From Oscillatoria nigro-viridis PCC 7112 (GTDB lineage: Bacteria > Cyanobacteriota > Cyanobacteriia > Cyanobacteriales > Microcoleaceae), in NCBI RefSeq assembly GCF_000317475.1, contig NC_019729.1, forward strand, positions 6,338,501 through 6,402,500: a stretch of DNA of 64,000 nucleotides, written 5' to 3'. How positions within the stretch are numbered: the first letter of the stretch is position 1; each line of letters opens with the position of its first letter. The translations under genes and the position numbers were made by a program. The notes beneath the pieces are model-generated. The model saw nothing but the letters and a program-made list of their open reading frames with translations. It did not search any database and was not told the origin of the DNA. This document shows positions 5,446 to 36,804 of the stretch, in pieces.

Positions 5446-5476
5446 ACTGGTTCCCAGGCTAGGCCCGGGAACCAGT
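5446..5476. repeat. Strong palindrome ACTGGTTCCC/GGGAACCAGT
   Basis: Ten-bp perfect inverted repeat with an inner GG...CC extension and a short loop, in the 176-bp gap between two minus-strand genes. It may terminate the ferritin-like gene transcript or be a dispersed palindrome; no long T-run follows on either strand, so termination is uncertain. Confidence 0.55.
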
Positions 5477-5549
5477 ATCTCTCGCTTGTTTGCGGAGGCA
5501 GAGGCAAGTTTGACTTGCAAAGCGGTTTCAACCAGGTTCGCGATCGTAT

Positions 5550-6452
5550 TTAAGCCTTGGGCTTAGTCGCCGGCTTTTTCTCAATGGTATTCAAGCCGTT
5601 GAGGAACATGGGCACAAATTTCTCGACAAATGCCTGCGGGTCGCGCTTCCAGGCCCGCTGAGCTACATCGACTCTGGTCATTTGCAGATCCGGGGCCAGC
5701 AGGGTTGCGGGCAAGCGTTCTATCAGGTATTGCGGGCGTTCCCACATCGGCATGGTGTTGGCAATGTCCACGAGGCGGCTAACGCGGCGCAGTTCTGCCC
5801 CCAGCATGATATCCATTCCCGATTCAAAAGCTGCTTGTTCGATCGCCACATACTTGCGCTTTGCCTGTTCCACCTTCTGGCGGTGTTCCGGGCTTTTGTC
5901 GGCGATTTGGGCCAGCCAGCGGTTGCCCCAGCGGACGTGACCGGCTTCTTCTGGAAAAATCTTTTCGATAGTTTCGCGGATTTTGACGTTTTCTGCGGTT
6001 TGGGGAGCCTGTTTGAGGGCATGGATGTGCGCTGAGAAGTATTCGCAGCCCCGCTTTTCGGTGACGTTAATCGCGGCTAGGGAAGAAATTACAAAGTCTT
6101 CGCGGTCTTGGGCGGGGTCTTTTTGCTCGCTGTCGAGCAACCTTTCAAATTCGTCAATGTAGGAGACTCCCGGCGGCGTTCCCACATTTTGGCCGATGTC
6201 TACCAGCAAGTCGGTGAGCCACATGGCGTGCCGCGCTTCGTCGGAAATGTGCCGGGAGAGGTCGCGCACGAGTTCGGCCGGTTCCCCGTTTAGCCGTTCG
6301 ATCAAGTCGGTGAGGTCTTTGCAACTGCGCTGTTCGCTGTACCGGTAGCGGTTGAGGGTGATCAGGTGAACTTCGCGATCGCGCACTACATTAGCTAAAA
6401 TTTCGCGCGCTCCCATAGCGTTGCGAAGCTTGCGGGGATAGGCAACAGTCAT
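5550..6452 (-). CDS. Ferritin-like domain protein (putative di-iron helical bundle)
   Basis: 300 residues from the ATG at 6452 (MTVAYPRKLRNAMGAREIL); a longer frame to 6557 has no supporting features and a low-complexity N-terminus. Carboxylate/histidine helices typical of ferritin-like bundles are visible: ISDEARHAMWLTDLLVDIG, EKRGCEYFSAHIHALK and FPEEAGHVRWGNRWLA, giving three ExxH-like pairs. This family is conserved in cyanobacteria but its substrate is not established. The C-terminus ends in a Lys/Pro-rich tail. It is a single-gene unit; the 300 bp upstream contain a TTTAGAT heptamer array and no clear promoter match. Confidence 0.75.
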   Translation of the reverse strand: MTVAYPRKLRNAMGAREILANVVRDREVHLITLNRYRYSEQRSCKDLTDLIERLNGEPAELVRDLSRHISDEARHAMWLTDLLVDIGQNVGTPPGVSYIDEFERLLDSEQKDPAQDREDFVISSLAAINVTEKRGCEYFSAHIHALKQAPQTAENVKIRETIEKIFPEEAGHVRWGNRWLAQIADKSPEHRQKVEQAKRKYVAIEQAAFESGMDIMLGAELRRVSRLVDIANTMPMWERPQYLIERLPATLLAPDLQMTRVDVAQRAWKRDPQAFVEKFVPMFLNGLNTIEKKPATKPKA

Positions 6453-6625
6453 GCTTTTATGTTGTTTTGTAAAGATACTTGTATAAGTGTAACGCAATTT
6501 GGGCGACAACCAATTACCTCGCAAGGGTGAAAGTTGTTGTTTAGCACGGAGATTCAATTTTATACAGACAATTTTTTGACTGGCTCAACAAATGACAATA
6601 GTTTTGAGTTGCGAGTCATACCATT

Positions 6626-6700
6626 TTAGATTTTAGATTTTAGATTAAACATGACTGATGACTATGAGGGTTTGGAGCTTTTCTACAGTTAGATTATTTT
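6626..6700. repeat. Interspersed repeat: TTTAGAT array plus GACTGATGA/GGGTTTGGAGCTT block
   Basis: Three tandem TTTTAGA units followed by a block reading ATGACTGATGA...GGGTTTGGAGCTT. The same order of elements recurs at about 10330-10440 (after apcF), which shows that this is a dispersed intergenic repeat and not part of a gene. It fills most of the 303-bp gap upstream of the ferritin-like gene. Confidence 0.6.
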
Positions 6701-6755
6701 TTTAAACTGCTATCACGCAAGCGTTGCGCGGATCGCAGAAAGCAACCTCATACAC

Positions 6756-6989
6756 TCAAAACTTTTCAGTTTCTGTCGAGTCTGAAAGCTCCACACTAGC
6801 AGACTCTTGTTGAAATTTTCGCGCCTCTTCTACTTCTAATCTAGCCAGAGTTGTCGCCACATCGGCTAACTGTAAAGCCAGATTCATCCGACAAACCGGG
6901 TTTTTTTCCCTCCACAGGTCTTTTGCCAAGAAATGTACTCGATAGCGAAACATTTTAATTGAATTTGGCGGAGTAACTTTCACGGTCAT
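6756..6989 (-). CDS. Small hypothetical protein
   Basis: 77 residues, not recognised. Reads MTVKVTPPNSIKMFRYRVHF and then a helix-rich, acidic C-terminal half (LARLEVEEARKFQQESASVE). It overlaps the upstream gene by four bases (ATGA), a strong sign of translational coupling, so it is very probably real. No cysteine clusters, signal peptide or membrane segment. Confidence 0.6.
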   Translation of the reverse strand: MTVKVTPPNSIKMFRYRVHFLAKDLWREKNPVCRMNLALQLADVATTLARLEVEEARKFQQESASVELSDSTETEKF

Positions 6990-7312
6990 AGTCTTTCTTC
7001 TGTTGAAGTTTGAATGCGGAGCAGCACCCGTTCTAGCTCCAAGTAAACAAATGTCAGCATGATTACTTTATCTTCATCGGTGATTGTAACACTACAGGTT
7101 GCCGATCGAGGTTCAACGCCTTCGTGTCTGACAACTACAGTATATTTTCCCTGCTTCAGGTTATCAAAATTCACATCTGCCTCAAACAGGTCAACTGTCT
7201 CCTCGGCGAGCACTCGTCCCTCTTGAGTCAGTAAAGTGACAAACGCAATGCCGTCAACTGAAGTCATGGCGACGTTACTCTGATTGCGGATCATCACAAA
7301 AATATCGGACAT
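6986..7312 (-). CDS. Hypothetical protein, beta-rich (possible Ig-like/CNA-B-like fold)
   Basis: 108 residues, not recognised by name. The strands VDGIAFVTLLTQEGRVLAEETV, NFDNLKQGKYTVVVRHEGV and ATCSVTITDEDKVIMLTFVY follow the pattern of small carboxypeptidase-regulatory or CNA-B-like beta-sandwiches (prediction only). First gene of a two-gene unit with the 77-residue protein, and divergent from the secreted protein at 7350 with only 37 bp between starts, so the promoters must overlap. Confidence 0.6.
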   Translation of the reverse strand: MSDIFVMIRNQSNVAMTSVDGIAFVTLLTQEGRVLAEETVDLFEADVNFDNLKQGKYTVVVRHEGVEPRSATCSVTITDEDKVIMLTFVYLELERVLLRIQTSTEERL

Positions 7313-7349
7313 TTTTTGGTAATTGTTAATTGCTAGTTGCTAATTTAGA

Positions 7350-7829
7350 ATGAGTGCAGCATCTTACAAACAAAAGATCGTAAATACGGTGAATCATTTC
7401 AATTTTTTGCTAATTGTGACTGTTAGTACAGCGGTTCTCGGTTTGGGAAAAAGTGCGGCGCTAGCTGCTGTCTTGAATATCTCTGAGACAGGGCCTTGTT
7501 TGCAGATTCACAGCGTGCGGGTTGCTCAAAGGGACGATCGCAATTTAAGCAACTCGAAAGGTACATTAAAAGAAGGCAGTGCCCTCTCTGTCGATCCAGA
7601 TCGTGTGGTTGGCATACCAAAAGCTGAAGCGCGGCGGCGTTTTATTCTGAATAAGATATATCGGGTTCAGGAAGGCACTACCGCTGACGATTTGTTTATT
7701 GTTGATGAGAAAGCAAATAAATGGGCTGTAGAAAATGTCTCTGAGGCTACAATGGGCCCTACTACTCACAGCGTTGCCGAGATAGTGTCGGGTAACGGGA
7801 GAGTTTGGGCGCTGATTCAGAAGTTCTAA
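7350..7829 (+). CDS. Hypothetical exported protein
   Basis: 159 residues. The N-terminus has a signal peptide-like layout: KQKIVNTVNHF, then a hydrophobic core FLLIVTVSTAVLGLG and small residues AALAA around position 40. The mature part has no recognisable domain (VGIPKAEARRRFILNKIYRV, then VQEGTTADDLFIVDEKANK). Probably periplasmic. A good Rho-independent terminator follows immediately, marking a monocistronic unit. Confidence 0.6.
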   Translation: MSAASYKQKIVNTVNHFNFLLIVTVSTAVLGLGKSAALAAVLNISETGPCLQIHSVRVAQRDDRNLSNSKGTLKEGSALSVDPDRVVGIPKAEARRRFILNKIYRVQEGTTADDLFIVDEKANKWAVENVSEATMGPTTHSVAEIVSGNGRVWALIQKF

Positions 7830-7837
7830 ACTTCAAA

Positions 7838-7868
7838 AAAACGCCGCTTTTAAGGGCGGCGTTTTTAT
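7838..7868 (+). terminator. Rho-independent terminator
   Basis: Stem AAAACGCCGC (7838-7847) pairs with GCGGCGTTTT (7856-7865), loop of eight bases, followed by T-rich sequence. It begins nine bases after the stop of the exported protein. Because it is A-rich on the other side it could also end glnA transcripts from the minus strand, whose stop is at 7939. Confidence 0.85.
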
Positions 7869-7938
7869 CAATTAAAAATTACCGGTTAAAAATAGTACAA
7901 TTGCCATTTTTAACTTTTAATTTTTAATTATTAATTTT

Positions 7939-9360
7939 CTAACAGTCGTAGTAGAGAGAAAACTCGTAGGGGTGAGGACGCAGCCGCATCGGGTTGACTT
8001 CATTGTCGAGTTTGTAGGAAATCCAGGTTTGGATGAAGTCTTCGGTAAATACGCCGCTATCAGTTAAGAAACTGTGGTCTTTTTCTAAAGCTTCTAAAGC
8101 GCCTTCCAAGGAACCGGGAGTGGAAGGAATTTTGCTCAATTCTTCAGGGGAAAGGTCGTAGATATCCACGTCCAAAGGTTCGCCCGGATCGATTTGATTC
8201 TTGATGCCGTCTATGCCGGCGCACAGCATGGCTGCAAATGCTAAATAGGGGTTAGATGTGGCATCGGGACAGCGGAATTCTAACCGCTTGGCTTTGGGGT
8301 TGGTTCCCGACAACGGAATCCGCACTGATGCCGATCGGTTTCCTTGAGAGTAAGCTAAGTTTACAGGAGCTTCAAAGCCCGGAACTAAACGCTTGTAGGA
8401 ATTGGTCGTGGGGTTGGTGATTGCCAAAAGTGCCGGTGCGTGCTTGAGAATGCCGCCGATGTAATGCAGTCCCATTTGACTGAAACCAGCATATTTATCG
8501 CCTGCAAATAGAGGCTGACCGTCTTTCCAAATCGACTGGTGAACGTGCATCCCGGAACCGTTGTCGTTAAACAGCGGTTTGGGCATGAAGGTGATGGTTT
8601 TGCCGTATTTTTTGCCGACGTTTTTGATGACGTATTTGTAAGTCAGCAAGTAGTCGGCGGCTTGTACTAAAGTTGCAAAGCGGAAACCTAGTTCGCATTG
8701 ACCGCCGGTGGCGACTTCGTGGTGGTGCTTTTCGATGGGTACGCCGCATTTTGCCATTGTCAGCAGCATTTCCGTTCTCATGTCTTGTGAGGTATCGGTT
8801 GGTGCTACTGGGAAATAACCTTCTTTGTAACGCGGTTTGTAGCCGAGGTTGCCGCCTGCTTCTTCTTTGCCGGAATTCCAGCGACCTTCGATCGAATCTA
8901 CGTAATAGTAGCCGGAATTTTGGGTTTGGTCGAAGCGAACGTCGTCAAAAATAAAGAATTCTGCTTCCGGGCCAAAGAATGCTGTATCGCCGAGACCGGT
9001 GGAAAGCAAGTAGTCTATGGCTTTTTGGGCAATGGTGCGGGGACAGCGACTGTACGGTTCGCCGGTGCGGGGTTCTTTGATGCTGCAAATGAAGCTGATG
9101 GTCGGTTCTGCCATGAACGGGTCCATCCAAGCGGTGGTCGGATCGATGACCATCGTCATGTCTGATTCGTTGATGGCTTTCCAGCCCCGGATGCTGGAAC
9201 CGTCAAAGGGTACGCCGTCTGTGAATGCGCTTTCGTCGATTTGGTCGTGGTACAGGGAAAGGTGTTGCCAGATCCCCGGCATATCGATGAACTTGAGGTC
9301 AACGATCTGGATTTGATTTTCTTTTATGTAGTTTAAGGCTTCTTGCGGCGTCTGGAACAT
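7939..9360 (-). CDS. glnA: Glutamine synthetase type I
   Basis: 473 residues, the usual GSI length. ATP-dependent ligation of ammonium to glutamate, the entry point of nitrogen in cyanobacteria (GS-GOGAT). Motifs: beta-grasp signature FDGSSIRGW, catalytic [12 protein letters not shown], the ATP-binding [18 protein letters not shown], the glutamate-binding flap region [21 protein letters not shown], and the C-terminal [15 protein letters not shown]. Transcription starts upstream at an NtcA-type promoter (see 9420-9461). In cyanobacteria this enzyme is held inactive by GifA/GifB peptides, not by adenylylation; no gif gene is seen in the window. Confidence 0.97.
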
Positions 9361-13478: not shown

Positions 13479-14956
13479 ATTTTAAACTCTTGCTGCAAGC
13501 GATCGATAATTGTATTGCGCTCGATGGTGGCGAGAATTTCTTGAATTACCGTATCTTGTCCCAAGGGGCCCCAGGTGCAGCCTTTTTCTAAATAAACTTG
13601 GGCGGCGCGACCGACAGCGTAGGTTCCGTAGGCTGCTAAACTAGCTTGAGTGACAGCAACTCCGGCAAAAGTAGAAAAGCCGATTTGCGGGGCCGCAGCC
13701 GCCGCACTTTTGCCAAATCCCAACAGAAAACTGCTACCCAATTCTCCCAAAAGTACGCCGCCAGCGCTGGAGAAAATAGTCTGCCAAAGTTTCCCCGCTT
13801 CGTAACCAGTCATGGGTAAACCGTAAAGTCTGGATAAAGAGCGAATTAAGGCTAAATCTGCGACAGTTGCTCCCATTACATCCAAGAATGCCACTGGATT
13901 TAAACCGACAGCCAAAGCTTTATATTTTGCAAATTGCCAGATTAAATCTTCGGCTTCTGTTTGTCGCAATTTGAGAACGTGACGGGCAATGTTTGCTTCG
14001 GCATCTCTAGCTTCAACTAAAGCATTTAGAGCGAGGAGCGATCGACCTTCTCTGTTAAGAATTGTGAGAATTTTATGTTTGAGTTCGTCTATCTGCGCGG
14101 GCGGGGACTCCCATTCGTTAGTTACTCTTCCGTCTGACCATTCCACCCGCACTTGCACCGGCGCCGGTTCGGCGGCTACCATGACTATTTCTAAAGATTT
14201 GGCAGCTTTAGGCGGTGATTTTACAGTAGATTTATCAGATGGGTTGTTTGGGTCAGACAAATTTTCGCTATCTGTTTTCTCTGTTACCGCAGCGGCTGCT
14301 AACTCTTCAGAATTTGCCAGCGCTTGCAAACTTTGGTAAATAGCTTTTCTGTCTAATTCTGGATACAGGTCAATTTTATTAAAAACTAAAATTACCGGTT
14401 TTTGAGCTGTTTGCAATTCGCACAGTGCTTGATATTCAGTGCGGGTGATATCGCCTGCAACGACAAACAGAATTAAGTCAGCTTGGCGAGTTACTTGTTT
14501 CGCCATTTCGCCGCGCACTTCGCCGCCAACTTCATCAAGTCCGGGAGTATCTATTAATTCAACTTGCACCCCTCCTTTCCCGCCCTTGACAAGGGGGGGT
14601 TGGGGGGATTCGTCGCTGTCAAGGAAGGATAAAGGCACACTCCAGCGCACGGAACGCGGCCACTGAGTCACGCCGTTGAGAGGGCCTGTTTGCAGAATTT
14701 TTTGACCTAAAAGCGCGTTTAATACGGCTGACTTGCCGCGGCTGACTAGCCCGAAAGTAGCAATGCGGATTATATTGTGGTCTAGTTTTTCTGAGGTGGA
14801 AGTTAAGATATCTAACTGATATTGCAGCGCCGCTTCTAATTCTGTATTATTCGAGTTTTTTTTCCCTTGGCGCAGGTGGGAATAGCGCGCCAGGGCTTCG
14901 CGCAAACTGGCGCGGGCAAGGGATAAGCGATTTTCTTGAAGGGAATTGTCACCCAT
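13475..14956 (-). CDS. Era-like GTPase with DUF697 C-terminal domain
   Basis: 493 residues. Walker A GLVSRGKS at 69-76, G3 DTPGLDEVGG, G4 VFNKIDLYPEL. The C-terminal third (ALAVGLNPVAFLDVMGATVA, then SRLYGLPMT, then hydrophobic Gly/Ala-rich helices) matches the DUF697 membrane-interacting region of YcjF-like proteins. The stretch SPQPPLVKGGKGG just before G3 is the translated form of a known cyanobacterial dispersed repeat inserted in frame (DNA at 14568-14607), so this protein carries an insertion in the switch region. A second DUF697 GTPase lies at 16063-17511 on the same strand. Function unknown; likely membrane-associated. Confidence 0.82.
   Translation of the reverse strand: MGDNSLQENRLSLARASLREALARYSHLRQGKKNSNNTELEAALQYQLDILTSTSEKLDHNIIRIATFGLVSRGKSAVLNALLGQKILQTGPLNGVTQWPRSVRWSVPLSFLDSDESPQPPLVKGGKGGVQVELIDTPGLDEVGGEVRGEMAKQVTRQADLILFVVAGDITRTEYQALCELQTAQKPVILVFNKIDLYPELDRKAIYQSLQALANSEELAAAAVTEKTDSENLSDPNNPSDKSTVKSPPKAAKSLEIVMVAAEPAPVQVRVEWSDGRVTNEWESPPAQIDELKHKILTILNREGRSLLALNALVEARDAEANIARHVLKLRQTEAEDLIWQFAKYKALAVGLNPVAFLDVMGATVADLALIRSLSRLYGLPMTGYEAGKLWQTIFSSAGGVLLGELGSSFLLGFGKSAAAAAPQIGFSTFAGVAVTQASLAAYGTYAVGRAAQVYLEKGCTWGPLGQDTVIQEILATIERNTIIDRLQQEFKI
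14568..14607. repeat. Dispersed repeat inserted inside the GTPase gene
   Basis: C-run/G-run inverted repeat (ACCCCTCCTTTCCC...GGGGGGGTTGGGGGG) encoding SPQPPLVKGGKGG on the minus strand. The element is in frame and does not break the gene. Confidence 0.65.
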
Positions 14957-27081: not shown

Positions 27082-28494
27082 GTGACCAAATCTAAATTCC
27101 CCACCCCAAACTCGACGAAATTGGCAAACCCTTGCCAGCAAGGTCAACTGATTGAGATAGAGATTACTGACTTGACAGACACCGGCGACGGAGTTGGTCG
27201 TTTTGGCGAGTTAGTAGTCTTTGTGCCCGATACCGTGACGGGCGATCGAGTCCTTGTCCGCCTCGTGCAAGTCAAATCCACCTATGCTACAGGCAAGCTG
27301 GACACACTTCTGGAAACCTCCGAACACCGCATTCGAGCTAACTGCATTGTCGCCGACAAGTGCGGCGGCTGTCAGTGGCAGCACGTAAATTATCAATATC
27401 AGCTTGCAGCCAAGCAAAATCAAATCACTCAAGCGTTAGAACGGATTGGCGGATTTAGCAATCCGCCAGTTGATGAAATCTTAACGGGAAAAATCGAGGG
27501 ATTTCCCCAATTTTTGGGATACCGCAACAAAGCGACTTATCCAGTCGCAATATCTGCGACAGGTCAAGTCCAAGCAGGTTACTATCAAAAAAGCACCCAC
27601 AAATTAGTCAATCTCAATCAGTGTCCGGTGCAAGACCCGCGCCTCAATCCTTTGTTAAAAGAAGTCAAAGAAGACATCCACTGGCGGGATTGGCAAGTCT
27701 ACGACGAAAAGAAACATACAGGAGAATTGCGTCACTTGTCCTTGCGGATCGGACGGCGCACCGGCGAGATGCTGCTAACTTTAATAGTTCGGACTGGAGA
27801 CTTGCCGGGAATCGAAGAGCAAGCATCAGAGTGGCTGAAACAATATCCTCAACTGGCAGGGGTTTGTTTGAATATAAATCCCGCTCAAACTAATGTGATT
27901 TTTGGTACCGAAACTCGCTGCGTTGCGGGTCGTTCTTATCTGCGAGAAAGCTTTGCTGGGATGAATTTTCAGCTAAGAGCCGATACTTTTTTTCAGGTAA
28001 ATACAGAGGCGGCTGAAGCGTTGTTAGAGGTGATGGTAGGAGAATTGAATTTGCAGGGAAACGAGGTTTTGGTTGATGCTTTCTGCGGAATTGGTACTTT
28101 TACTTTACCCCTGGCAAAACAAGTAAAAATAGCCATAGGTCTAGAAGTGCAAGCGGCGGCGATCGAACAAGCCCAATTAAATGCTGAGTTAAATGACGTG
28201 AGAAATGTCGAGTTTCAGGTAGGAACTGTAGAGAGTTTGCTGCCTTCCTTGGGATTGACACCGGATATTGTGCTGCTAGATCCGCCGAGGAAAGGGTGCG
28301 ATCGCGCGGTTTTGGAAGCGATCGAGGAAATCAAACCAAATCGTATTGTTTATGTTAGCTGCAAGCCTGCTACTTTGGCTCGCGACCTGAAGATTTTGTG
28401 CGAAAATGGGGATTATAAGTTAGCGCGAGTGCAGCCGGCGGATTTCTTTCCTCAGACTTCTCATGTTGAGTGTGCGGCGTTTTTGGTGCGGTGA
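27082..28494 (+). CDS. rlmD: 23S rRNA (uracil-C5)-methyltransferase, RlmD/TrmA family
   Basis: 470 residues from GTG 27082. N-terminal TRAM domain (QGQLIEIEITDLTDTGDGVG, about 16-70), an iron-sulfur motif with Cys residues in CIVADKCGGCQWQH and the later NQCPV, a SAM-binding domain (VLVDAFCGIGTFTLPLA), and the catalytic VYVSCKPATLARDL with LLDPPRKGCDRAVLEAI. These are the hallmarks of m5U methyltransferases acting on 23S rRNA (RlmD/RlmC) or tRNA (TrmA/TrmFO is separate). Length and TRAM domain favour RlmD. No operon partner; the next gene is 150 bp away. Confidence 0.92.
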   Translation: MTKSKFPTPNSTKLANPCQQGQLIEIEITDLTDTGDGVGRFGELVVFVPDTVTGDRVLVRLVQVKSTYATGKLDTLLETSEHRIRANCIVADKCGGCQWQHVNYQYQLAAKQNQITQALERIGGFSNPPVDEILTGKIEGFPQFLGYRNKATYPVAISATGQVQAGYYQKSTHKLVNLNQCPVQDPRLNPLLKEVKEDIHWRDWQVYDEKKHTGELRHLSLRIGRRTGEMLLTLIVRTGDLPGIEEQASEWLKQYPQLAGVCLNINPAQTNVIFGTETRCVAGRSYLRESFAGMNFQLRADTFFQVNTEAAEALLEVMVGELNLQGNEVLVDAFCGIGTFTLPLAKQVKIAIGLEVQAAAIEQAQLNAELNDVRNVEFQVGTVESLLPSLGLTPDIVLLDPPRKGCDRAVLEAIEEIKPNRIVYVSCKPATLARDLKILCENGDYKLARVQPADFFPQTSHVECAAFLVR

Positions 28495-28643: not shown

Positions 28644-29063
28644 ATGTCGGCTAGGGATGTTTTCCATGAGTCTGTGAAATCCGCTCTCCTGAAGGATAAT
28701 TGGGTAATTACCCACGATCCGCTGAAGCTAAAGTTTAGCGAAGACGATCGGCTCAGGATTGACTTGGGGGCGGAACAGCTTTTAGCCGCAGAGCGAGGTG
28801 TGCAGAAGATTGCGGTGGAAGTTAAAAGCTTTCTGAGTGAATCAGCTATGTTTGATTTCCACCTAGCCCTCGGTCAATTTTTGAATTATCGACTAGCACT
28901 CAGAAATTTGGAGCCAGATCGATCGCTCTATTTGGCAGTTCCGATCGCTGCTTATAATTCATTTTTCTCTCGTGCTTTGCCCCAAGCGGCGATAGCTGAG
29001 TACGATTTAAAGTTGTTAGTATACGACCCTACTAATGAGGTGATTGTAGAATGGATAGATTAG
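28644..29063 (+). CDS. xisH: XisH family protein (fdxN element excision controlling factor)
   Basis: 139 residues. Starts MSARDVFHESVKSALLKDNW, contains DLGAEQLLAAERG and IAVEVKSFLSESAMFDFHLA. The D...E-V-K arrangement is a PD-(D/E)XK nuclease-like core. XisH was named for its effect on fdxN element excision in Anabaena, but homologues occur in many cyanobacteria without that element, and none of XisF or the element is seen here. The stop overlaps the start of xisI by 13 bases, so they are translationally coupled. Confidence 0.93.
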   Translation: MSARDVFHESVKSALLKDNWVITHDPLKLKFSEDDRLRIDLGAEQLLAAERGVQKIAVEVKSFLSESAMFDFHLALGQFLNYRLALRNLEPDRSLYLAVPIAAYNSFFSRALPQAAIAEYDLKLLVYDPTNEVIVEWID

Positions 29064-29386
29064 CTAAATATCGGCAAATTGTTCGCACTTTCTTGATGGA
29101 ATATAGCAAGACTAAACCGATCAATGACGACATTGAAATCCAGGTATTGTTTGACACAGAACATGACCATTATCAGATAGTAGATTTAGGTTGGGACGGT
29201 CACAATCGGATTTATAGTTGCCCGATCCACTTAGACATCAGAGATGGGAAAGTCTGGATTCAACGCAATCAAACCGATGAACTGATTGCTCAGGAGTTAG
29301 TGCTGATGGGTGTGGCGCGGGAGGATATTGTTTTGGGGCTTCAGCCTCCCTATGCAAGACAGTTTACGAGCTATGGTGTCGCTTAG
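29051..29386 (+). CDS. xisI: XisI family protein
   Basis: 111 residues. MDRLAKYRQIVRTFLMEYSK and IEIQVLFDTEHDHYQIVDLGWDG, then the HLDIRDGKVWIQRNQTDELI segment are characteristic of XisI. It starts 13 bp before the end of xisH. XisI is the usual partner of XisH; the two-gene unit probably acts as a mobile defence or toxin-antitoxin-like module in cyanobacteria (inference). Confidence 0.93.
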   Translation: MDRLAKYRQIVRTFLMEYSKTKPINDDIEIQVLFDTEHDHYQIVDLGWDGHNRIYSCPIHLDIRDGKVWIQRNQTDELIAQELVLMGVAREDIVLGLQPPYARQFTSYGVA

Positions 29387-29406: not shown

Positions 29407-29667
29407 TTACTCTCGATCGCGCGATCGCAAATTAGCTCGAATTTGTGCCATTGCGGTTGCACCGTCTGCGACTTCACCGCGTTGGGATGCAAGATGTCCA
29501 ATCAGTGCGTCTTGTTGGAGTTCTTGCAGTCGTCCTTGATAAATATCTTGCTGTTGTTTGAGTAGTTTAATGGCTGCAAGGATAACGTCGATCGCGCTGT
29601 TGTATTTGCCGCTGGTGAGTTGGCGCTGTATGAGGGCTTCGGCTTCAGGTGGCAAAACAATTTGCAT
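29407..29667 (-). CDS. ParD-like antitoxin, no visible toxin partner
   Basis: 86 residues. Ribbon-helix-helix start MQIVLPPEAEALIQRQLTSGKYNSAIDVIL fits ParD/CC2985 antitoxins; the remainder (LQELQQDALIGHLASQRGEV) is the extended toxin-neutralising tail. A ParE/RelE toxin gene would be expected directly downstream, but the stop is at 29407 and the next minus-strand space holds only xisI on the other strand. So it is an orphan antitoxin or its toxin has been lost. Confidence 0.78.
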   Translation of the reverse strand: MQIVLPPEAEALIQRQLTSGKYNSAIDVILAAIKLLKQQQDIYQGRLQELQQDALIGHLASQRGEVADGATAMAQIRANLRSRDRE

Positions 29668-29714: not shown

Positions 29715-30245
29715 TCAGTTAGATTGGTTTGTTGAGGGGCGATCTTTTGTATCCATGTCTTCTGTCATTGTTGCTTCTGAAAGCGAAGGTAATGTTAGTT
29801 GGAGGTGAATGTCAATTGTTATGGTATGAGTTTGATTATTCAAACCTATGTTAACTATGTTTACTAACGGAATTTGGGGTGAATAATTGCTTGAGTGAGA
29901 TTTAACAGAGGGCATAGTTTTATATCCAGCTTCCTCTAGCCAGTTATGAATATTTCTCCAGTTGCTTACCTTTTCGTTAGGTACATCTGTAATTTTTTTG
30001 AAGTATTGATATAAAGTTTTAGATACATAAACCTCAACACCTTTACGACTTTGATGGAGTTGGCTAGCTATTTCCGCAGGACTGTGACCGCAGAGCAAAC
30101 CTCGGAGAAAAAGCTTTTCTCGTTCTGTAAGTCCCTTTCTGGCACGAGGAGATACTTGCCACTTGGCTTCTGCCATAGCTTTGTAGAGCCTTTCCAAGTC
30201 CCAGTTATTCGCAGCTTCGGCAAACATCTCGTCGCTGGATGTCAT
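29715..30245 (-). CDS. LuxR-like HTH regulator
   Basis: 176 residues. An HTH core near residues 38-85 reads LTEREKLFLRGLLCGHSPAE, IASQLHQSRKGVEVYVSKTL, the pattern of LuxR/GerE helices and also of the HTH at the front of the NB-ARC protein at 42808. The rest includes WRNIHNWLEEAGYKTM and a Thr/Ile-rich tail (IVNIGLNNQTHTITIDIHLQ). It has no receiver domain. It diverges from the tandem dynamin-like pair at 30624-34621, 378 bp upstream, so it may control that pair (inference). Confidence 0.7.
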   Translation of the reverse strand: MTSSDEMFAEAANNWDLERLYKAMAEAKWQVSPRARKGLTEREKLFLRGLLCGHSPAEIASQLHQSRKGVEVYVSKTLYQYFKKITDVPNEKVSNWRNIHNWLEEAGYKTMPSVKSHSSNYSPQIPLVNIVNIGLNNQTHTITIDIHLQLTLPSLSEATMTEDMDTKDRPSTNQSN

Positions 30246-30623
30246 CGCAGTATGTCTCGCTTAGTTGATAGCTAAAGCCTAACTAAAATTATAGCTTTGG
30301 CTAGTTGCTATCTGAGTATAACTTAGTTTATCATTGCTGAAACCGGTGTGGCGATCGCTCTGCTGTAAAAAGAGCGGGCTATGTGTCAAGAGTTTAGGGT
30401 GCAGATACAGCAGCGGTTAATGGGCTAGTGTAAAGATTTGTAACAATACGCCAAATTCTGCGTAAAAATTCGGGATTGAAGCCGAATACATATATAGGAG
30501 GAAGATTTTGCTTGGTGCGGGACTGAGTTGGTACTGGATGCTTAGGCGTTGCGGTATCTATTTGGGGTGAGTGCGATCGGGCAATACACGCTTTTCTGTA
30601 TCAAAAATTGAACGGATAGTAAT
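30246..30623. other. Intergenic region upstream of the dynamin-like pair
   Basis: 378 bp with no gene supported. It contains GCGATCGC sites and a purine-rich TATAGGAGGAAG at about 30492, too distant from the start codon to be its ribosome site. The start of the dynamin-like gene follows GGATAGTAAT. Confidence 0.5.
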
Positions 30624-32555
30624 ATGAATAATTATGATGACCATATACAATTTGCCGAGAATGTAATTGAGCGATCGCAACTTCCCCAATCTCAAAGAGA
30701 TGGGTTACGTCAGCTAATCCAGCGCATTCAGCAAAGACAAAACGATCCAAATCTTTATTTAGCAGTGATTGGAGAATTTTCTAGTGGTAAGAGTACCTTT
30801 ATCAATGCCTTACTCCGTGATAATTTGCTGAAAACATCAGCTTTAGTGACAACTGCTGCTGCTACTAGATTACGCTATGGTCAAGAAATTAACATAGAAA
30901 TAAATTTTAGGCAAGTTCCAGAAATAATTAAACCCAGAAGATTTTGGGCTAGAAATGCGATATCAGCTATTATTAGATTTCTCGATAGTTTAGGTTTAGA
31001 CTTTGACATAATAACTGCTATTGAAGTTTTTTTTAATGATGTCGTTGCTTTTTTATTCAGCCTTTTTAACATATCAAATAATCTTACAAATATAATTACA
31101 TCTGAAGACATTAGGGCTAAGGGTATAGATATTAGGGAGTTTATTCACAAAGTTACGTCTGAAGAAGAGATAGCTAAAGAAGTTATTGATGTTAATATTA
31201 ATCATCCAGCCACTTTTCTACAAAATAATATCGTGATTATTGACCTACCTGGTACTAATGCTACCAATACCAGACACGCACAAATTACACGAGAAATTGT
31301 AGAAAATGAAGCTGATGTTGCTATTGTTATAATTCCTGCTACACAACCTGTAAGTGACACTTTGGCGGAATTTTTGAGCTCGACAATACAATCTTCGCTA
31401 GATCGCTGTATATTTGTTGTTAGCCGCATGGATCAAATTCGCCAGAGAGAACATAATAGAATGTTGGCTAATGTGAGAGAGAGATTGGTAGATCAGCTAG
31501 AAGTTAATCCTAATAAATTGTATTCATGTTCTGCTCAGGTTGTTATAGATGATGTCACAGGAGAGCAGCAAGCAGTAAATAACCCGGAATTTTGGATCGA
31601 GCAATTTACGCAAATGCAGGTTGAAATCATAGAACGCTTAAAAGCTGAACGGAACGCAATTATTAGTGAAAATATCCAAGGTTTATTTGGTCAGCTATTT
31701 AATCAAATCAAAAGTTATTTACAATCTCAATGGAATCAATACAAGGAAAAAGAATCTAAAATTCAGAAAGAAACGATTCAAGACATTGAATTTTTTAAAA
31801 ATCAACAATATAGAGAGTGTATTAATATGATCGATAGAACTGCTAGTCGCTCGGAAAATAAAATCAACGATCATGTTGACACTTTTAGAGATCGAACTAC
31901 TGCTAAAGTAAAAGAAGCTATTTTTGGCGCAAGTGATTGGGACGGTCTCAAGTATGTTGTTAATACTAAGGTTGCGACAATTTTACGAGATCAACAAAAC
32001 TTACTAAGTGATAGTATTCAAAATGAATGCCATAATCTTTCTCAGTCTGCACAGGAAGTTGGGCAATATTTTGATAAAAAATTTACTGAAGTCTATCGAA
32101 GCTTACAAGCATTAGGTGGGCGTGTTGAAACTAATTCGGTGTTCGCCAGTAGTAATATTTCAATCAATACATATTCAGTTATTTCTTCTGCACAACAACT
32201 CAATAGTTCAAATTTTGGTAATGCAATGGCAGGCTTTTTTTCTCATGTATTTCGTGGTTTACTTGACGATCGCAAGCAAAAGATTTGGAATGAAATTCGA
32301 CCTAAAATTTATAACTGTTTTGCTGAAATCAAACAACAGGTGCAACCAACAGTAAAGAAAGATGCAGACAATCTGAAGACAGCCATCAATCAGCGGATTA
32401 ATGCTTACATTACTCACTACAAATCTGTTGTAGATGGTATGTTGAACGAACAAAAAATGGAATTGCAGCGATTGACACAGTTGCAAGCGACCATTCAAGC
32501 TGACTTAGCGGAGATTGAGCGAAGGCAACTGCAAATAAAAGTCAATTTACGTTGA
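30624..32555 (+). CDS. Dynamin-like GTPase, first of a tandem pair
   Basis: 643 residues. Walker A GEFSSGKS at 50-57, switch region SALVTTAAATRL, G3 VIIDLPGTN, G4-like FVVSRMDQ. The region 90-190 includes a hydrophobic loop inserted between G2 and G3 (IIRFLDSLGLDFDIITAIEV, then FLFSLFNISNNL) not seen in canonical dynamins. C-terminal two-thirds is alpha-helical with coiled-coil character (YKEKESKIQKETIQDIEFFK). AT-rich and without HIP1 sites for most of its length, unlike the housekeeping flanks, so recent acquisition is likely. Probably forms a heteromeric membrane-remodelling pair with the next protein (inference from known two-gene bacterial dynamins). Confidence 0.85.
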   Translation: MNNYDDHIQFAENVIERSQLPQSQRDGLRQLIQRIQQRQNDPNLYLAVIGEFSSGKSTFINALLRDNLLKTSALVTTAAATRLRYGQEINIEINFRQVPEIIKPRRFWARNAISAIIRFLDSLGLDFDIITAIEVFFNDVVAFLFSLFNISNNLTNIITSEDIRAKGIDIREFIHKVTSEEEIAKEVIDVNINHPATFLQNNIVIIDLPGTNATNTRHAQITREIVENEADVAIVIIPATQPVSDTLAEFLSSTIQSSLDRCIFVVSRMDQIRQREHNRMLANVRERLVDQLEVNPNKLYSCSAQVVIDDVTGEQQAVNNPEFWIEQFTQMQVEIIERLKAERNAIISENIQGLFGQLFNQIKSYLQSQWNQYKEKESKIQKETIQDIEFFKNQQYRECINMIDRTASRSENKINDHVDTFRDRTTAKVKEAIFGASDWDGLKYVVNTKVATILRDQQNLLSDSIQNECHNLSQSAQEVGQYFDKKFTEVYRSLQALGGRVETNSVFASSNISINTYSVISSAQQLNSSNFGNAMAGFFSHVFRGLLDDRKQKIWNEIRPKIYNCFAEIKQQVQPTVKKDADNLKTAINQRINAYITHYKSVVDGMLNEQKMELQRLTQLQATIQADLAEIERRQLQIKVNLR

Positions 32556-32632
32556 TGTATTAAATCAGTTACCTAACTCAATCTCTCTAATCTCACTGGC
32601 TAACTCTATCTAATAGTCAAAAGGAGACTACT

Positions 32633-34621
32633 ATGAACTCTAACGATCGACAATATCAGTTATTTCAACAAAAACGTAACGCCCTAGCTGTTTTAGTAAA
32701 GCAGCAAATAGATGTGTTACATTCTCTTAACATGACCGAAACAGAAGCAAATATTTGTAAGCTAGAGGAGCGAATTTTAACCGATGGCTTCAAAGTGCTT
32801 GTAGTGGGTGAGTTTAAGCGGGGAAAAAGCACTTTTATTAATGCTTTGTTGCGACAAGAAGTGCTACCTGCTTATTCAACCCCAACTACTGCAATCATCA
32901 ATGAAGTTAAATGGGGAGATAAGCAGAAAGCGATGCTATATCACAAAAAGCCTGCTTCTGGTTCACCGCGACCGCCCCAGGAAATACCTGTGGACAAAAT
33001 TGAGGAGTATGTTGTTATTAAAGACTCTGGTAAAAAAGAAGGCCAAGAAAGCCCCTATGAAAAGGTGGAATTATTTTGGCCTTTAGAACTTTGTCGCAAT
33101 GGTGTAGAAATTATTGATTCTCCCGGACTCAATGAAAATGAAGTACGCCAGCAAGTCACGGTAGATTACTTGTCAAGAGTCGATGCTGTGCTTTTTGTTC
33201 TGTCTTGCGAACAACTTGGTCCTTCAATTTCTGAACAGAAGATGATTGAACTGTTGAGTAATTGCGGTCATGAGGATATCTTTTTTATCTGCAATCGCTT
33301 CAATGATATTCGCAGAAAAGAAGAGCAAGAGCGAGTCAGACAACACGGCTTATCTCAGTTTAGTAATCTAACCAAACAAGGAACCAAGGGTATCTTTTTC
33401 ATCACGGCTGTGGATGCTTTGGAAGGTTATTTAGAGAACGATGTGAACCGGATTAAGGCTTCTGGTATAGAACTTGTAGAGCAAGCACTAGCAACATTTT
33501 TAGCTAAGGAAAGAGGGCGGGTAAAAATTGTTCGTTCAGAAAAGATTTTCCGAATGTCTGTTGAGGAATCCAGAAAAATTATTCCTCAGCGAGAATCGAT
33601 GCTGAGAACTGATTTGCAAACTTTGGAAAAACGCTATGCTGATGCTCAAGAGTCATTGCGATCCCTAGAAAAGGAGCGTGAAAGCATAGTTAGACGGATA
33701 TCGAACTTCCGCGAAGATATTAAAGAGTTAGTTCGGGGTAAAGCTCGCGAGCTTCTCAATAAAGTCAATGAAAAACTTGATGACTGGGTGAGTGAATATA
33801 CAATCCAAGAAAGCGTAAAACTATTCTCTAAAGATATCTTCAACATGGAAGCGGCAGCTAAAAGAGTTGTCGAAGAGGTAACTCAATATCTTTCTAGCAA
33901 AGTAGAGAAAGAGTTTACCCAATGGCAACGTCACGAGTTACAGCCTTTTTTGGGAAGCCGTTTGGACGATCTATTCCGAGAATTAGAAGACAAGGCAGGT
34001 AATTTTTTCTCCGATTTAGATCGAGTGCGTGTTGAGGTTTCTGGAACTAAGATATCAAAACTAGATGTAGAAGTAGAAGACACTAAAATTTCTCCTATTA
34101 ATCGCATTCTCTCTGGTATTGCTGGTTTTGTATTCATGGACTATGGTTCAGCCGCGATAGGAGGGTTATTTGGCTACAAAGAAATGCTCAAGAGTCTGAT
34201 TCCTCAAATTGCTACCGTTGCAGTAACAATAGCGTTTGCTGGACTCAATCCTTGGGTATTAATTCCAGCAATATTTGGTAGTAGTACACTACAAGCCTTT
34301 ATTAAGGTTAACGGAATTAACGATAAGGTTAAACAACAAGTAGGCAAAGAATATGGATCTACATTGCAAGCATCAAACCAGCCAAATGAAGTAGCTAATG
34401 CTGTTGCAGCTAAGATTAAAGAAATTGAGGACGGTGTAGATGGAGGACTTGGTAGCGAGATTCAAAGTGTTCGGACTCAAGTTAACTCAATTTTGGCTGA
34501 AAAGCAAAAAGGTCAAGTCAATGTTGACCAAAAGATTCAGGAGTTAAAATTGCTCTCGGAGCAATTAAATGCTATTGATGGGGAACTGAATGAGTTGATG
34601 AGACAAGTTGCTCAGATGTAG
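32633..34621 (+). CDS. Dynamin-like GTPase, second of a tandem pair
   Basis: 662 residues, preceded by AAAGGAGA as ribosome site. Walker A GEFKRGKS at 59-66, TPTTAIINEVKWG (G2 and P-loop neighbour), G3 IIDSPGLNENE, G4-like FICNRFND. C-terminal half has a long coiled-coil (TDLQTLEKRYADAQESLRSL) and then a paired hydrophobic segment with glycines (INRILSGIAGFVFMDYGSAA, then LIPQIATVAVTIAFAGLNPW), the membrane-inserting paddle of bacterial dynamin-like proteins. Gap to the first protein is 77 bp, same strand. Closely similar two-gene sets exist in other bacteria, where both proteins act together on membranes. Confidence 0.88.
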   Translation: MNSNDRQYQLFQQKRNALAVLVKQQIDVLHSLNMTETEANICKLEERILTDGFKVLVVGEFKRGKSTFINALLRQEVLPAYSTPTTAIINEVKWGDKQKAMLYHKKPASGSPRPPQEIPVDKIEEYVVIKDSGKKEGQESPYEKVELFWPLELCRNGVEIIDSPGLNENEVRQQVTVDYLSRVDAVLFVLSCEQLGPSISEQKMIELLSNCGHEDIFFICNRFNDIRRKEEQERVRQHGLSQFSNLTKQGTKGIFFITAVDALEGYLENDVNRIKASGIELVEQALATFLAKERGRVKIVRSEKIFRMSVEESRKIIPQRESMLRTDLQTLEKRYADAQESLRSLEKERESIVRRISNFREDIKELVRGKARELLNKVNEKLDDWVSEYTIQESVKLFSKDIFNMEAAAKRVVEEVTQYLSSKVEKEFTQWQRHELQPFLGSRLDDLFRELEDKAGNFFSDLDRVRVEVSGTKISKLDVEVEDTKISPINRILSGIAGFVFMDYGSAAIGGLFGYKEMLKSLIPQIATVAVTIAFAGLNPWVLIPAIFGSSTLQAFIKVNGINDKVKQQVGKEYGSTLQASNQPNEVANAVAAKIKEIEDGVDGGLGSEIQSVRTQVNSILAEKQKGQVNVDQKIQELKLLSEQLNAIDGELNELMRQVAQM

Positions 34622-34721
34622 CAGTTTTTTGTTTTTCCCAGAGCGATAGCCCCTCTCCCCTCCTCAATCTTAAAGTGCGATCGCCCTTATTTTCCGAAAG
34701 TGCGATCGCCTTAAAATCATG

Positions 34722-35057
34722 TCAAATATATTCAATCCTCCCCATCATTTCTTCAGGCGCATACACTTCATAAATTAAAATAAAACTACGGATAATCTCG
34801 CCAACAAAACGAGAATTAGGAGGACAATAGACAATCCCCGGATAATCTGTGGTATCGCTTGCCATAATTAAAAAATCGTCATTGTGAGTTAATATCACGC
34901 GCTGCTCTTCGCGAATAAACGCTAGGTGTGACTCATCGCTTTTAGTACGCAACCCTGCATCAACTGTTGTCGTCACATCTATCCCGTAACGACGTAAACC
35001 GCGCGCAATATTAGAGTCAATATGTTCGTCTAAATGAAAACGAATTTGCTCACTCAC
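34722..35057 (-). CDS. DUF5615 PIN-like toxin
   Basis: 111 residues. Starts IRFHLDEHIDSNIARGLRRY with the conserved Asp of the PIN-like fold, then ESHLAFIREEQRVILTHNDDFLIMA with the second pair of acidic residues, features of the DUF5615 family. PIN-domain RNases cut mRNA or tRNA. Its start overlaps the end of the upstream DUF433 gene by eight bases, the standard order for this toxin-antitoxin type. Confidence 0.86.
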   Translation of the reverse strand: MSEQIRFHLDEHIDSNIARGLRRYGIDVTTTVDAGLRTKSDESHLAFIREEQRVILTHNDDFLIMASDTTDYPGIVYCPPNSRFVGEIIRSFILIYEVYAPEEMMGRIEYI

Positions 35058-35370
35058 CTCTAATTGCCCTCAATTTTTCTTGTAACGGAGATGGTGGACT
35101 ATTACGCTTTAATTCTTCCACAATAGCTCGACTTTCAGCAGTGTGACGATCGATTTCTTCTCGACGATCGTAATAATAGGTCATTGCTGCATGAACTGAG
35201 GCAAGTGGTAAGTCATACTTGCCGGCAATTTCTTCTATAGAAATTCCCATTTTCAGATACATTTCGGCGATGTGTGCTACAGCAATTCGATGACCAGCAA
35301 TGCGTGGCTTACCACCAAGTACCCCAGGCGTAATTTCGATATGTTCTGTGATGACGGATTCCTTAGACAT
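35050..35370 (-). CDS. DUF433 antitoxin
   Basis: 106 residues. VITEHIEITPGVLGGKPRIA, GHRIAVAHIAEMYLKMGISIEEIAGKYD matches the DUF433 helix-turn-helix antitoxin; the ILGGKPRI segment is its hallmark. The C-terminal 30 residues (RRNSPPSP...) form a neutralising tail. Forms a pair with DUF5615 downstream. Such pairs are widespread in cyanobacteria. Confidence 0.9.
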   Translation of the reverse strand: MSKESVITEHIEITPGVLGGKPRIAGHRIAVAHIAEMYLKMGISIEEIAGKYDLPLASVHAAMTYYYDRREEIDRHTAESRAIVEELKRNSPPSPLQEKLRAIRGE

Positions 35371-35688: not shown

Positions 35689-36804
35689 ATGAACAACGCT
35701 TCTCCCCTGATTCAAACCGTGACTCCAGAACGCTGGGCCGGGTTTAGTATGGACTTTATAGGGGCGGGTTACACGGGTTTGTTGGTCAAAAACGGCCGCG
35801 TCGTGCGTACCCTAAAATCCGGGCGGCATTTCAGCTTCGCCCTTCCCCTGCTAGAACAGTGTCAAATTGTCATCGTAGACACCAAACTCCGCAATTTGGA
35901 GGTACAGTCGCACGGAGATTTTTTGTCTAAGGATCGATTTTTAATTGATGCCACTCTGACTGTTATTTATCAAGTTATAGATCCGAAACGAGTAGCTTTG
36001 GAATTGTCCGATCCTCTAGCTGTTTTAGCAAGTGCAGTTAAGGATTGTATGGGATTAGCGATCGGGCAAATACCCCTACAACAGCTTATCAGTCAAGGAC
36101 GGCTGTTGCTGCGCCAAAATTTGCTCGATCGCGTCCAAGATTTTTATACCCTAGGTTTCAACTTAGAAGACGTGCGAATTGGCGATGTCAGCTTTCCCGA
36201 AACCAACGGAGTTATTCGCCAAGTTGAGGGAATGAGTGCCCGACAAGAAGCAGAAAATGCCGCCGCCCTGCAAATGAGAATTGCCGAAGCAGGCCGTCCG
36301 ATCGTTCCTCAATCTCCCGTACAGCAGTTAAACTTAATTTCAGGTAATTCTCCTGCGAGTCTTCCAGCTTCTGACACAGCAGCAGGGTTCGATCGAGATT
36401 TACAACAACTGACACAACAACTTGCTCAAAACAGCCTCCCTCCTGGGAGAAATCCTCCCCAACTTGCACCAACCGTACTCGCAAGCAGCGATCGCAAAAC
36501 AACCGCATATTTAATCTACAAACTTTCTGGAGAGGCGATCGCCCTAACAGCCAATCCCTTTACAATTGGACGCGAACCAACCAACACTTTAGTATTGCAA
36601 GATCCGCAAAGTTCGCGCTACCACGCTCAAATCCGCCGGGCCACTGACGAACTTGGCAAACAGCGATATCAGCTTGTCGATAGCGGCAGTTCCAACGGCA
36701 CTTTTGTGGGTGGGCAGAGGCTGGCTGCTAACGAGCCTTTTTGGCTGCCAAATGGTTGCGAAATTGCGATCGGCGACCAAAAATGGATCTTTCAAAATTC
36801 GTGA
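35689..36804 (+). CDS. SPFH (band 7) and FHA domain fusion protein
   Basis: 371 residues. Residues 15-200 have the SPFH/prohibitin plan (GLLVKNGRVVRTLKSGRHFS, VIVDTKLRNLEVQSHGDFLS, ATLTVIYQVIDPKRVALELS, ARQEAENAAALQMRIAEAGR with the terminal coiled coil). Residues about 280-370 are an FHA domain (TIGREPTNTLVLQDPQSSRY, SGSSNGTFVGGQRL) that binds phosphothreonine. A Pro/Gln-rich linker joins them. No signal peptide or transmembrane segment is clear. The combination is uncommon; it may link a membrane-scaffold protein to a Ser/Thr kinase pathway (inference). Followed by a perfect 17-bp hairpin at 36832. Confidence 0.85.
   Translation: MNNASPLIQTVTPERWAGFSMDFIGAGYTGLLVKNGRVVRTLKSGRHFSFALPLLEQCQIVIVDTKLRNLEVQSHGDFLSKDRFLIDATLTVIYQVIDPKRVALELSDPLAVLASAVKDCMGLAIGQIPLQQLISQGRLLLRQNLLDRVQDFYTLGFNLEDVRIGDVSFPETNGVIRQVEGMSARQEAENAAALQMRIAEAGRPIVPQSPVQQLNLISGNSPASLPASDTAAGFDRDLQQLTQQLAQNSLPPGRNPPQLAPTVLASSDRKTTAYLIYKLSGEAIALTANPFTIGREPTNTLVLQDPQSSRYHAQIRRATDELGKQRYQLVDSGSSNGTFVGGQRLAANEPFWLPNGCEIAIGDQKWIFQNS

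Follow-up and report, generated by a model that had tools for sequence, protein, structure and literature searches.

It is already known that diverse immune operons can share a regulator. The BrxR/CapW regulators, which carry a WYL domain, form a small family of transcription factors that is found beside diverse defence systems and binds its own promoter region (PMC9122601, PMC9122588, PMC9122589). CapS, which combines a STAS domain with a winged helix-turn-helix (HTH) and has a GHKL kinase partner (CapK), is an autoregulated local regulator located before unrelated immune operons (PMC13373217). Double GTPase, Hsp70, vWA, caspase, and AAA components have been described in the NTP-dependent conflict systems of multicellular prokaryotes (PMC7159879). 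With regard to dynamin-like proteins (DLPs), the Tandem A/Tandem B pairs of cyanobacteria, which include the Nostoc BDLP, consist of two different tandem DLPs, the downstream one being BDLP-like (PMC5827413). Operon-paired dynamin-like genes are also known from LeoABC and Campylobacter (PMC4159319, PMC6104087). The Campylobacter pair forms a hetero-oligomer that tethers membranes (PMC6104087), and DynA of Bacillus confers phage resistance (PMC8844932).

We analyzed a 64,000-nucleotide stretch of Oscillatoria nigro-viridis PCC 7112 (NC_019729.1, positions 6,338,501–6,402,500; hereafter the window), in which an earlier note had described a LuxR-like HTH gene divergent from two tandem DLP genes (DLP1 and DLP2) and flanked by xisH/xisI, an orphan antitoxin, and a toxin–antitoxin pair. 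All of these genes were found, and the flanking genes had matches to the expected Pfam families (table 1). Comparison with related loci suggested that the HTH gene, its predicted operator, and the divergent promoter probably constitute a local control unit for exchangeable operons, among which the dynamin pair is one. Similar to BrxR/CapW, the HTH family is located beside diverse defence-like operons and has conserved sites at its promoter, here recognized from sequence alone. It differs from them in its GerE-like HTH, its divergent placement, its occurrence in filamentous cyanobacteria, and the fact that module exchange can be seen in place at one chromosomal site; no Pfam match to a WYL domain was detected C-terminal to the HTH. 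It also resembles CapS as a putative local regulator that precedes unrelated, probably immune operons and in its predicted autoregulation. However, neither Pfam nor NCBIfam matched a STAS domain in the HTH protein, and the HTH loci lack a constant STAS or kinase partner, no kinase being common to all of them. Several of the sibling operons contain parts like those of the NTP-dependent conflict systems, and a word search of that study (PMC7159879) found neither a shared LuxR-like regulator nor dynamin modules. No description of the HTH family was found in the open-access literature, although absence there is not proof of novelty. As far as these searches reach, the HTH family, its operator, its spread among filamentous cyanobacteria, and the replacement of whole operons in place behind it are new.

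Table 1. Features of the HTH–dynamin locus and its flanks (window coordinates).
Feature	Position	Strand	Evidence
rlmD-like 23S rRNA methyltransferase gene (core, left edge of variable site)	27082..28494	+	Named from sequence, not by family search
xisH (hotspot flank)	28644..29063	+	Pfam XisH, 181.6 bits
xisI (hotspot flank)	29051..29386	+	Pfam XisI, 146.7 bits
Orphan ParD-type antitoxin (hotspot flank)	29407..29667	-	Pfam ParD_antitoxin, 26.6 bits (cut-off 21)
Solo GerE/LuxR-like HTH regulator, 176 aa	29715..30245	-	Pfam GerE, 27.7 bits (cut-off 23.5); family alignments; model
Divergent promoter/leader region	30246..30623		Common with L059 to ~30587; likewise L060, L073
Predicted operator: CTRAY half-sites ~14 bp apart plus inverted TTAG copies	30265..30334 (core 30265-30307)	+	Alignment
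DLP1, Tandem-A-type dynamin-like GTPase, 643 aa	30624..32555	+	Pfam Dynamin_N, 90.1 bits; PADLOC LeoA, E=2.4e-22
DLP1 hydrophobic insertion between switch I and switch II, ~residues 110-150	30951..31073	+	Alignment, hydropathy; helices in low-confidence model
DLP2, Tandem-B-type dynamin-like GTPase, 662 aa	32633..34621	+	Pfam Dynamin_N (89 bits) and Dynamin-like_hel_bact; PDB 2j68
DLP2 membrane paddle (hydrophobic hairpin)	34100..34279	+	Hydropathy/motif reading
Right exchange boundary	34672..34721		DNA similarity to L063 and L127 (other modules) restarts at 34672
PIN-like (DUF5615) putative toxin (hotspot flank)	34722..35057	-	Pfam DUF5615, 45.8 bits
DUF433 putative antitoxin (hotspot flank)	35050..35370	-	Pfam DUF433, 62.5 bits
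SPFH-FHA protein gene (core, right edge of variable site)	35689..36804	+	Pfam Band_7 and FHA

GerE was the sole domain found in the HTH protein by Pfam and NCBIfam, and neither database revealed the receiver or autoinducer domain of classical LuxR/NarL regulators. The structure model (mean pLDDT 75) predicted N-terminal helices, an HTH at approximately residues 39–84, and a C-terminus composed of one beta hairpin (residues 127–149) with weak tails. No significant match came from a fold search with this model, an expected outcome given its small size and low confidence. Members of the family were detected in 29 of 30 genomes of the genus, with up to eight matches per genome when fusions are counted; across the phylum, 48 of 386 genomes had a member. 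Phages and plasmids were considered as vehicles of spread and rejected: the HTH was absent from phage records and viral contigs, its only plasmid occurrence was an NB-ARC fusion on one Gloeothece plasmid, and DLP1 had no plasmid match. A second HTH copy of the same genome (L025:4713-5220; C1:199729-200220) has an early TAA after 82 codons with the remainder in register, and the dynamin gene beside it is intact; the regulator is thus not always kept. In L113:613-1863 the HTH is fused to a WD40 propeller, and frames of similar length recur in many genomes of the genus.

To characterize the neighborhood of the family, 72 solo HTH loci were read. A divergent gene starts 100–850 bp from the HTH start in 71 of them, whereas control genes have a divergent upstream neighbor in 26–38% of cases; among non-redundant loci the proportion was 30 of 31 (binomial P ~5e-12 at p=0.38). 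These divergent operons were sorted by hand into approximately 33 unrelated types, with module labels set by hand and module ends taken from open reading frames. They include dynamins, E1-Ubl-E2-JAB, caspase-FHA-kinase, and vWA-PP2C-kinase operons, KAP and other AAA ATPases, DO-GTPase and Hsp70-like operons, and RTX proteins. Pfam searches supported E1 (ThiF), Ubl (YukD-like, weak), E2 (UQ_con), JAB, DO-GTPase (weak), and Hsp70 in one set of modules; AAA, adenylate kinase, KAP NTPase, CBS, and protein kinase-RDD in another; and, in further sets, a single large dynamin, FHA, caspase, kinase, and subtilase-RTX, as well as vWA, PP2C, kinase, RTX, and TPR. PADLOC matches of the sibling modules comprised E1-E2, JAB, QatA/PDC-S20, caspase, and IetA. 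On the other hand, RTX, LGFP, or subtilase-RTX genes, none of them typical of immunity, are found at about one-fifth of the loci, and several of the modules are uncharacterised; both observations count against a defence reading. An E1-Ubl-E2-JAB-like module (L175:769-7421) also contains a VirD4/TraD-type coupling ATPase (T4SS-DNA_transf, 61.9 bits), and a vWA-PP2C-kinase module includes a protein kinase fused to a type IV pilin-like GH domain (L161:5743-8154).

The idea that the HTH gene is a regulator of the dynamins as such was rejected, since close relatives of the HTH face many unrelated operons. In a tree of 68 HTHs, the nearest neighbor of the window's protein (96% identical) belongs to locus L059, which has an E1-Ubl-E2-JAB operon, and those of L060 (DO-GTPase) and L062 (E2-E1-JAB) are also close; L061, which carries the identical type of dynamin pair, is less close than these three. 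Module types recur across several well-supported clades of the tree.

Analysis of the upstream regions revealed a predicted operator. In the 150 bp immediately upstream of the HTH gene, 31 non-redundant loci contain 54 CTAAC/GTTAG sites compared with 13.0 expected from dinucleotide shuffles, and 19 loci have two or more such sites (2.0 expected). Three CTRAY half-sites spaced by approximately 14 bp and followed by an inverted TTAG were recognized, whatever the module, in 36 of 37 non-redundant loci, a count made by eye on the alignment with L182 as the exception. In the window's own genome the pattern marks two of the three HTH loci. A genome-wide scan gave 12 matches versus 21 for the reversed control and thus no excess beyond the HTH loci, which fits a local regulator. 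The conserved DNA extends further in some loci: the HTH gene and the intergenic DNA are common to the window, L059, L060, L061, and L073 (to the contig end), and the operons behind them are of unrelated kinds, the promoter/leader being nearly identical before DLP1, E1, DO-GTPase, and Hsp70-like operons.

We identified 34 pairs of loci that share DNA on both flanks and carry different modules. Because toxin–antitoxin genes are repeated in these genomes, the pairs with long flanks are the strongest cases, such as L025 and L132 (left 3.2 kb at 91%, right 2.0 kb at 91%), L027 and L152 (left 2.9 kb at 89%, right 1.6 kb at 93%), and the window and L127 (left 1.9 kb at 88%, right 2.3 kb at 92%). In most inspected pairs, the left breakpoint coincides with the operator edge at +55 to +97 relative to the HTH start, with outliers at +280 to +450 in some pairs and at the HTH start itself (0) in window/L127. 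In pairs with a clear module end, the right breakpoint mostly falls no more than ~120 bp past the last module gene, after which similarity restarts (e.g., window/L063, L027/L152, and window/L127). What these alignments establish is the unit itself, its conserved operator-like repeats, its divergence, and the fact that operons have been swapped in the interval from the operator edge to the right flank.

The chromosomal site of the window is also variable. The rlmD-like gene lies beside the matching site in relatives (78–97% identity), and the SPFH-FHA gene is present in 28 of 30 genomes of the genus. Between them, genome G033 (L184) has an empty site with a gap of 460 bp, G162, G150, and G166 have the HTH with other modules, G109 has accessory genes including a Piwi-domain protein, and G168 has a STAND NTPase. 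Judging from this gene content, the interval is a variable hotspot carrying defence-like genes. The Piwi-domain protein (L185:7372-9690) has 772 aa.

Several other explanations of the unit were considered. The HTH might be a mobile or hitch-hiking autoregulated gene whose operator controls the HTH alone, the divergent operons recombining at hotspots without being regulated by it. The predicted operator, which lies within ~90 bp of the HTH start and is nearer to it than to most module starts, could indeed serve the HTH gene alone; some modules begin 500–850 bp away, and CTRAY-type repeats are also found upstream of certain HTH fusions, the clearest case being the HTH-WD40 gene of L113. However, pure autoregulation would make superfluous both the near-constant divergence and the conservation of the promoter/leader far towards the effector start in the window, L059, L060, L061, and L073, and we consider this explanation unlikely.

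It is less probable still that the HTH is a dedicated regulator of a membrane-maintenance dynamin pair that responds to membrane stress or serves thylakoid/envelope repair, with no role in defence. BDLP-type dynamins do remodel membranes, and the paralogous HTH in the same genome (L025) also faces a dynamin gene, as do those of ten other loci, but the HTH clade of the window faces E1-Ubl-E2-JAB, E2-E1-JAB, and DO-GTPase operons, and the DLP pair is rare and located in a variable hotspot. Finally, related domains occur as N-terminal fusions to NB-ARC and WD40 proteins (one NB-ARC fusion lies on the Gloeothece plasmid), which would suit an adaptor that acts with effectors at the protein level, like death-like adaptor domains, rather than a transcription factor. 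The GerE match above cut-off, the repeat operator conserved in nearly all loci, and the fact that the HTH is a separate divergent gene tied to no single effector make such a role very improbable.

Under the preferred reading of a local control unit, the HTH protein would bind the CTRAY repeats and control both its own gene and the divergent operon. By analogy with BrxR/CapW and CapS, it would most likely act as a repressor that is relieved by an infection or stress signal. Homologous flanks, namely, the HTH gene and operator on the left and toxin–antitoxin or core genes on the right, may allow new operons to recombine under ready-made control. With less certainty, the exchangeable operons may mainly be cell-defence or conflict systems, and DLP1 and DLP2 may assemble into a GTP-driven hetero-oligomer by which membranes are tethered, resealed, or sacrificed when the cell is attacked. 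A protective or sacrificial role at the membrane is plausible in view of the Campylobacter hetero-oligomers and the phage resistance conferred by DynA. A possible antiphage role for the pair is supported by context, namely, its location in a variable hotspot with a Piwi gene in one relative and a STAND NTPase in another, and the PADLOC matches of the pair and of several sibling modules.

A broader reading, to which we give slightly less than an even chance, is that the HTH gene and its operator serve filamentous cyanobacteria as a genomic docking platform, where whole conflict operons are captured, expressed under one inducible control, and replaced. Its cargo would comprise dynamins, ubiquitin-like conjugation, caspase-kinase and vWA-phosphatase-kinase systems, ATPases, and secreted RTX proteins. 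The logic is similar to that of an integron, but the platform would act on whole operons and through flank homology. If the control unit is real, the HTH with its CTRAY operator would provide a single conserved marker, easy to search for, that points to many conflict operons of filamentous cyanobacteria that are as yet unstudied and under similar control. Candidates for bacterial ubiquitin-like, caspase, and dynamin systems would be among them, and a common inducing signal would be predicted. Module exchange is visible in place, the site and regulator being constant and the operon different, and bacterial dynamin pairs gain a testable context as accessory, probably inducible genes that are interchangeable with defence-like operons.

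As for the dynamin pair, its description as an accessory module with a conserved HTH neighbor was borne out. A DLP2 ortholog (92%) was detected in one of 29 genus mates, and in L061, from the same genus, the full block XisHI-ParD-HTH-DLP1-DLP2-PIN-DUF433 is repeated; the dynamin genes are therefore not core genes that occur in all relatives without the HTH. Of 148 genomes examined from the order, 7 had a DLP1 match, with identity of at most ~40% over the main stretch outside the window's genome. The same three-gene order was thus found elsewhere in L061, but three more distant DLP1 relatives had no HTH gene nearby in the stretches read. Other DLPs, less closely related, are common throughout the genus, which also has a separate and widespread DLP pair of another kind. 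The pair is also AT-rich, as previously noted (GC 37% vs ~44–46% outside, within the lowest 2% of 4-kb windows). The reported scarcity of HIP1 sites proved weaker than claimed, with one site compared with a median of 4 and equally low counts in 11 of 120 windows, and was discarded as a sign of foreign origin.

Both proteins contain Dynamin_N, and only DLP2 is BDLP-like over its length, in agreement with the earlier note that two different GTPases are present. DLP2 aligned with the Nostoc BDLP (PDB 2j68) across residues 48–646 (E=1.4e-35), whereas DLP1 matched it in short stretches alone (1.1e-13). By sequence, the two are of the Tandem A/Tandem B type described from cyanobacteria. The G1, G3, and G4 motifs were found in DLP1, and G1 and G3 in DLP2, which has NRFN at the G4 position. 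The pair also matched PADLOC models of LeoA (2.4e-22 and 1.1e-20) and LeoBC (1.5e-10 and 4.3e-12). Sequence similarity to LeoABC and the Campylobacter pair is low, and the locus contains two DLP genes only and not the leoA-leoB-leoC set of PADLOC.

The paired membrane helix that had been noted in DLP2 corresponds to its paddle hairpin, and the hydrophobic insertion between the switch regions of DLP1 was likewise recovered, with a 19-residue Kyte-Doolittle peak of 1.92 at residues ~127–150. Among five DLP1 sequences, the insertion is present only in the copies of the window and L061. The peak in L061 is just 1.35, so the insertion need not span a membrane, and the DLP1 structure model, based on five sequences (mean pLDDT 66), is not reliable enough to show where it lies. 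These two copies also lack the glycine-rich paddle hairpin, which is kept in the other three relatives. The switch-region insertion, the missing paddle hairpin, and the adjoining HTH unit distinguish the window's pair from published Tandem A/B pairs (PMC5827413).

Additional dynamin-related genes were observed. On the minus strand of the window, at 14378-14764 in a frame of 498 aa, lies another GTPase with a weak Dynamin_N match. In L033:11-8137 and L035:8734-15914, four-gene operons consist of DLP1, a 258–277-aa gene, a 793–843-aa gene, and DLP2, with no HTH nearby; the middle genes of L035 matched Peptidase_C39_2 (just below cut-off) and Dynamin_N (a third dynamin). In L025, a 71-aa glycine/alanine-rich hydrophobic peptide (5448-5663) is encoded upstream of the 796-aa dynamin (5779-8169), an order that is repeated in L130, L133, L138, and L150. 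This dynamin itself lacks any strongly hydrophobic stretch, and its membrane hairpin may be supplied by the separate 71-aa gene.
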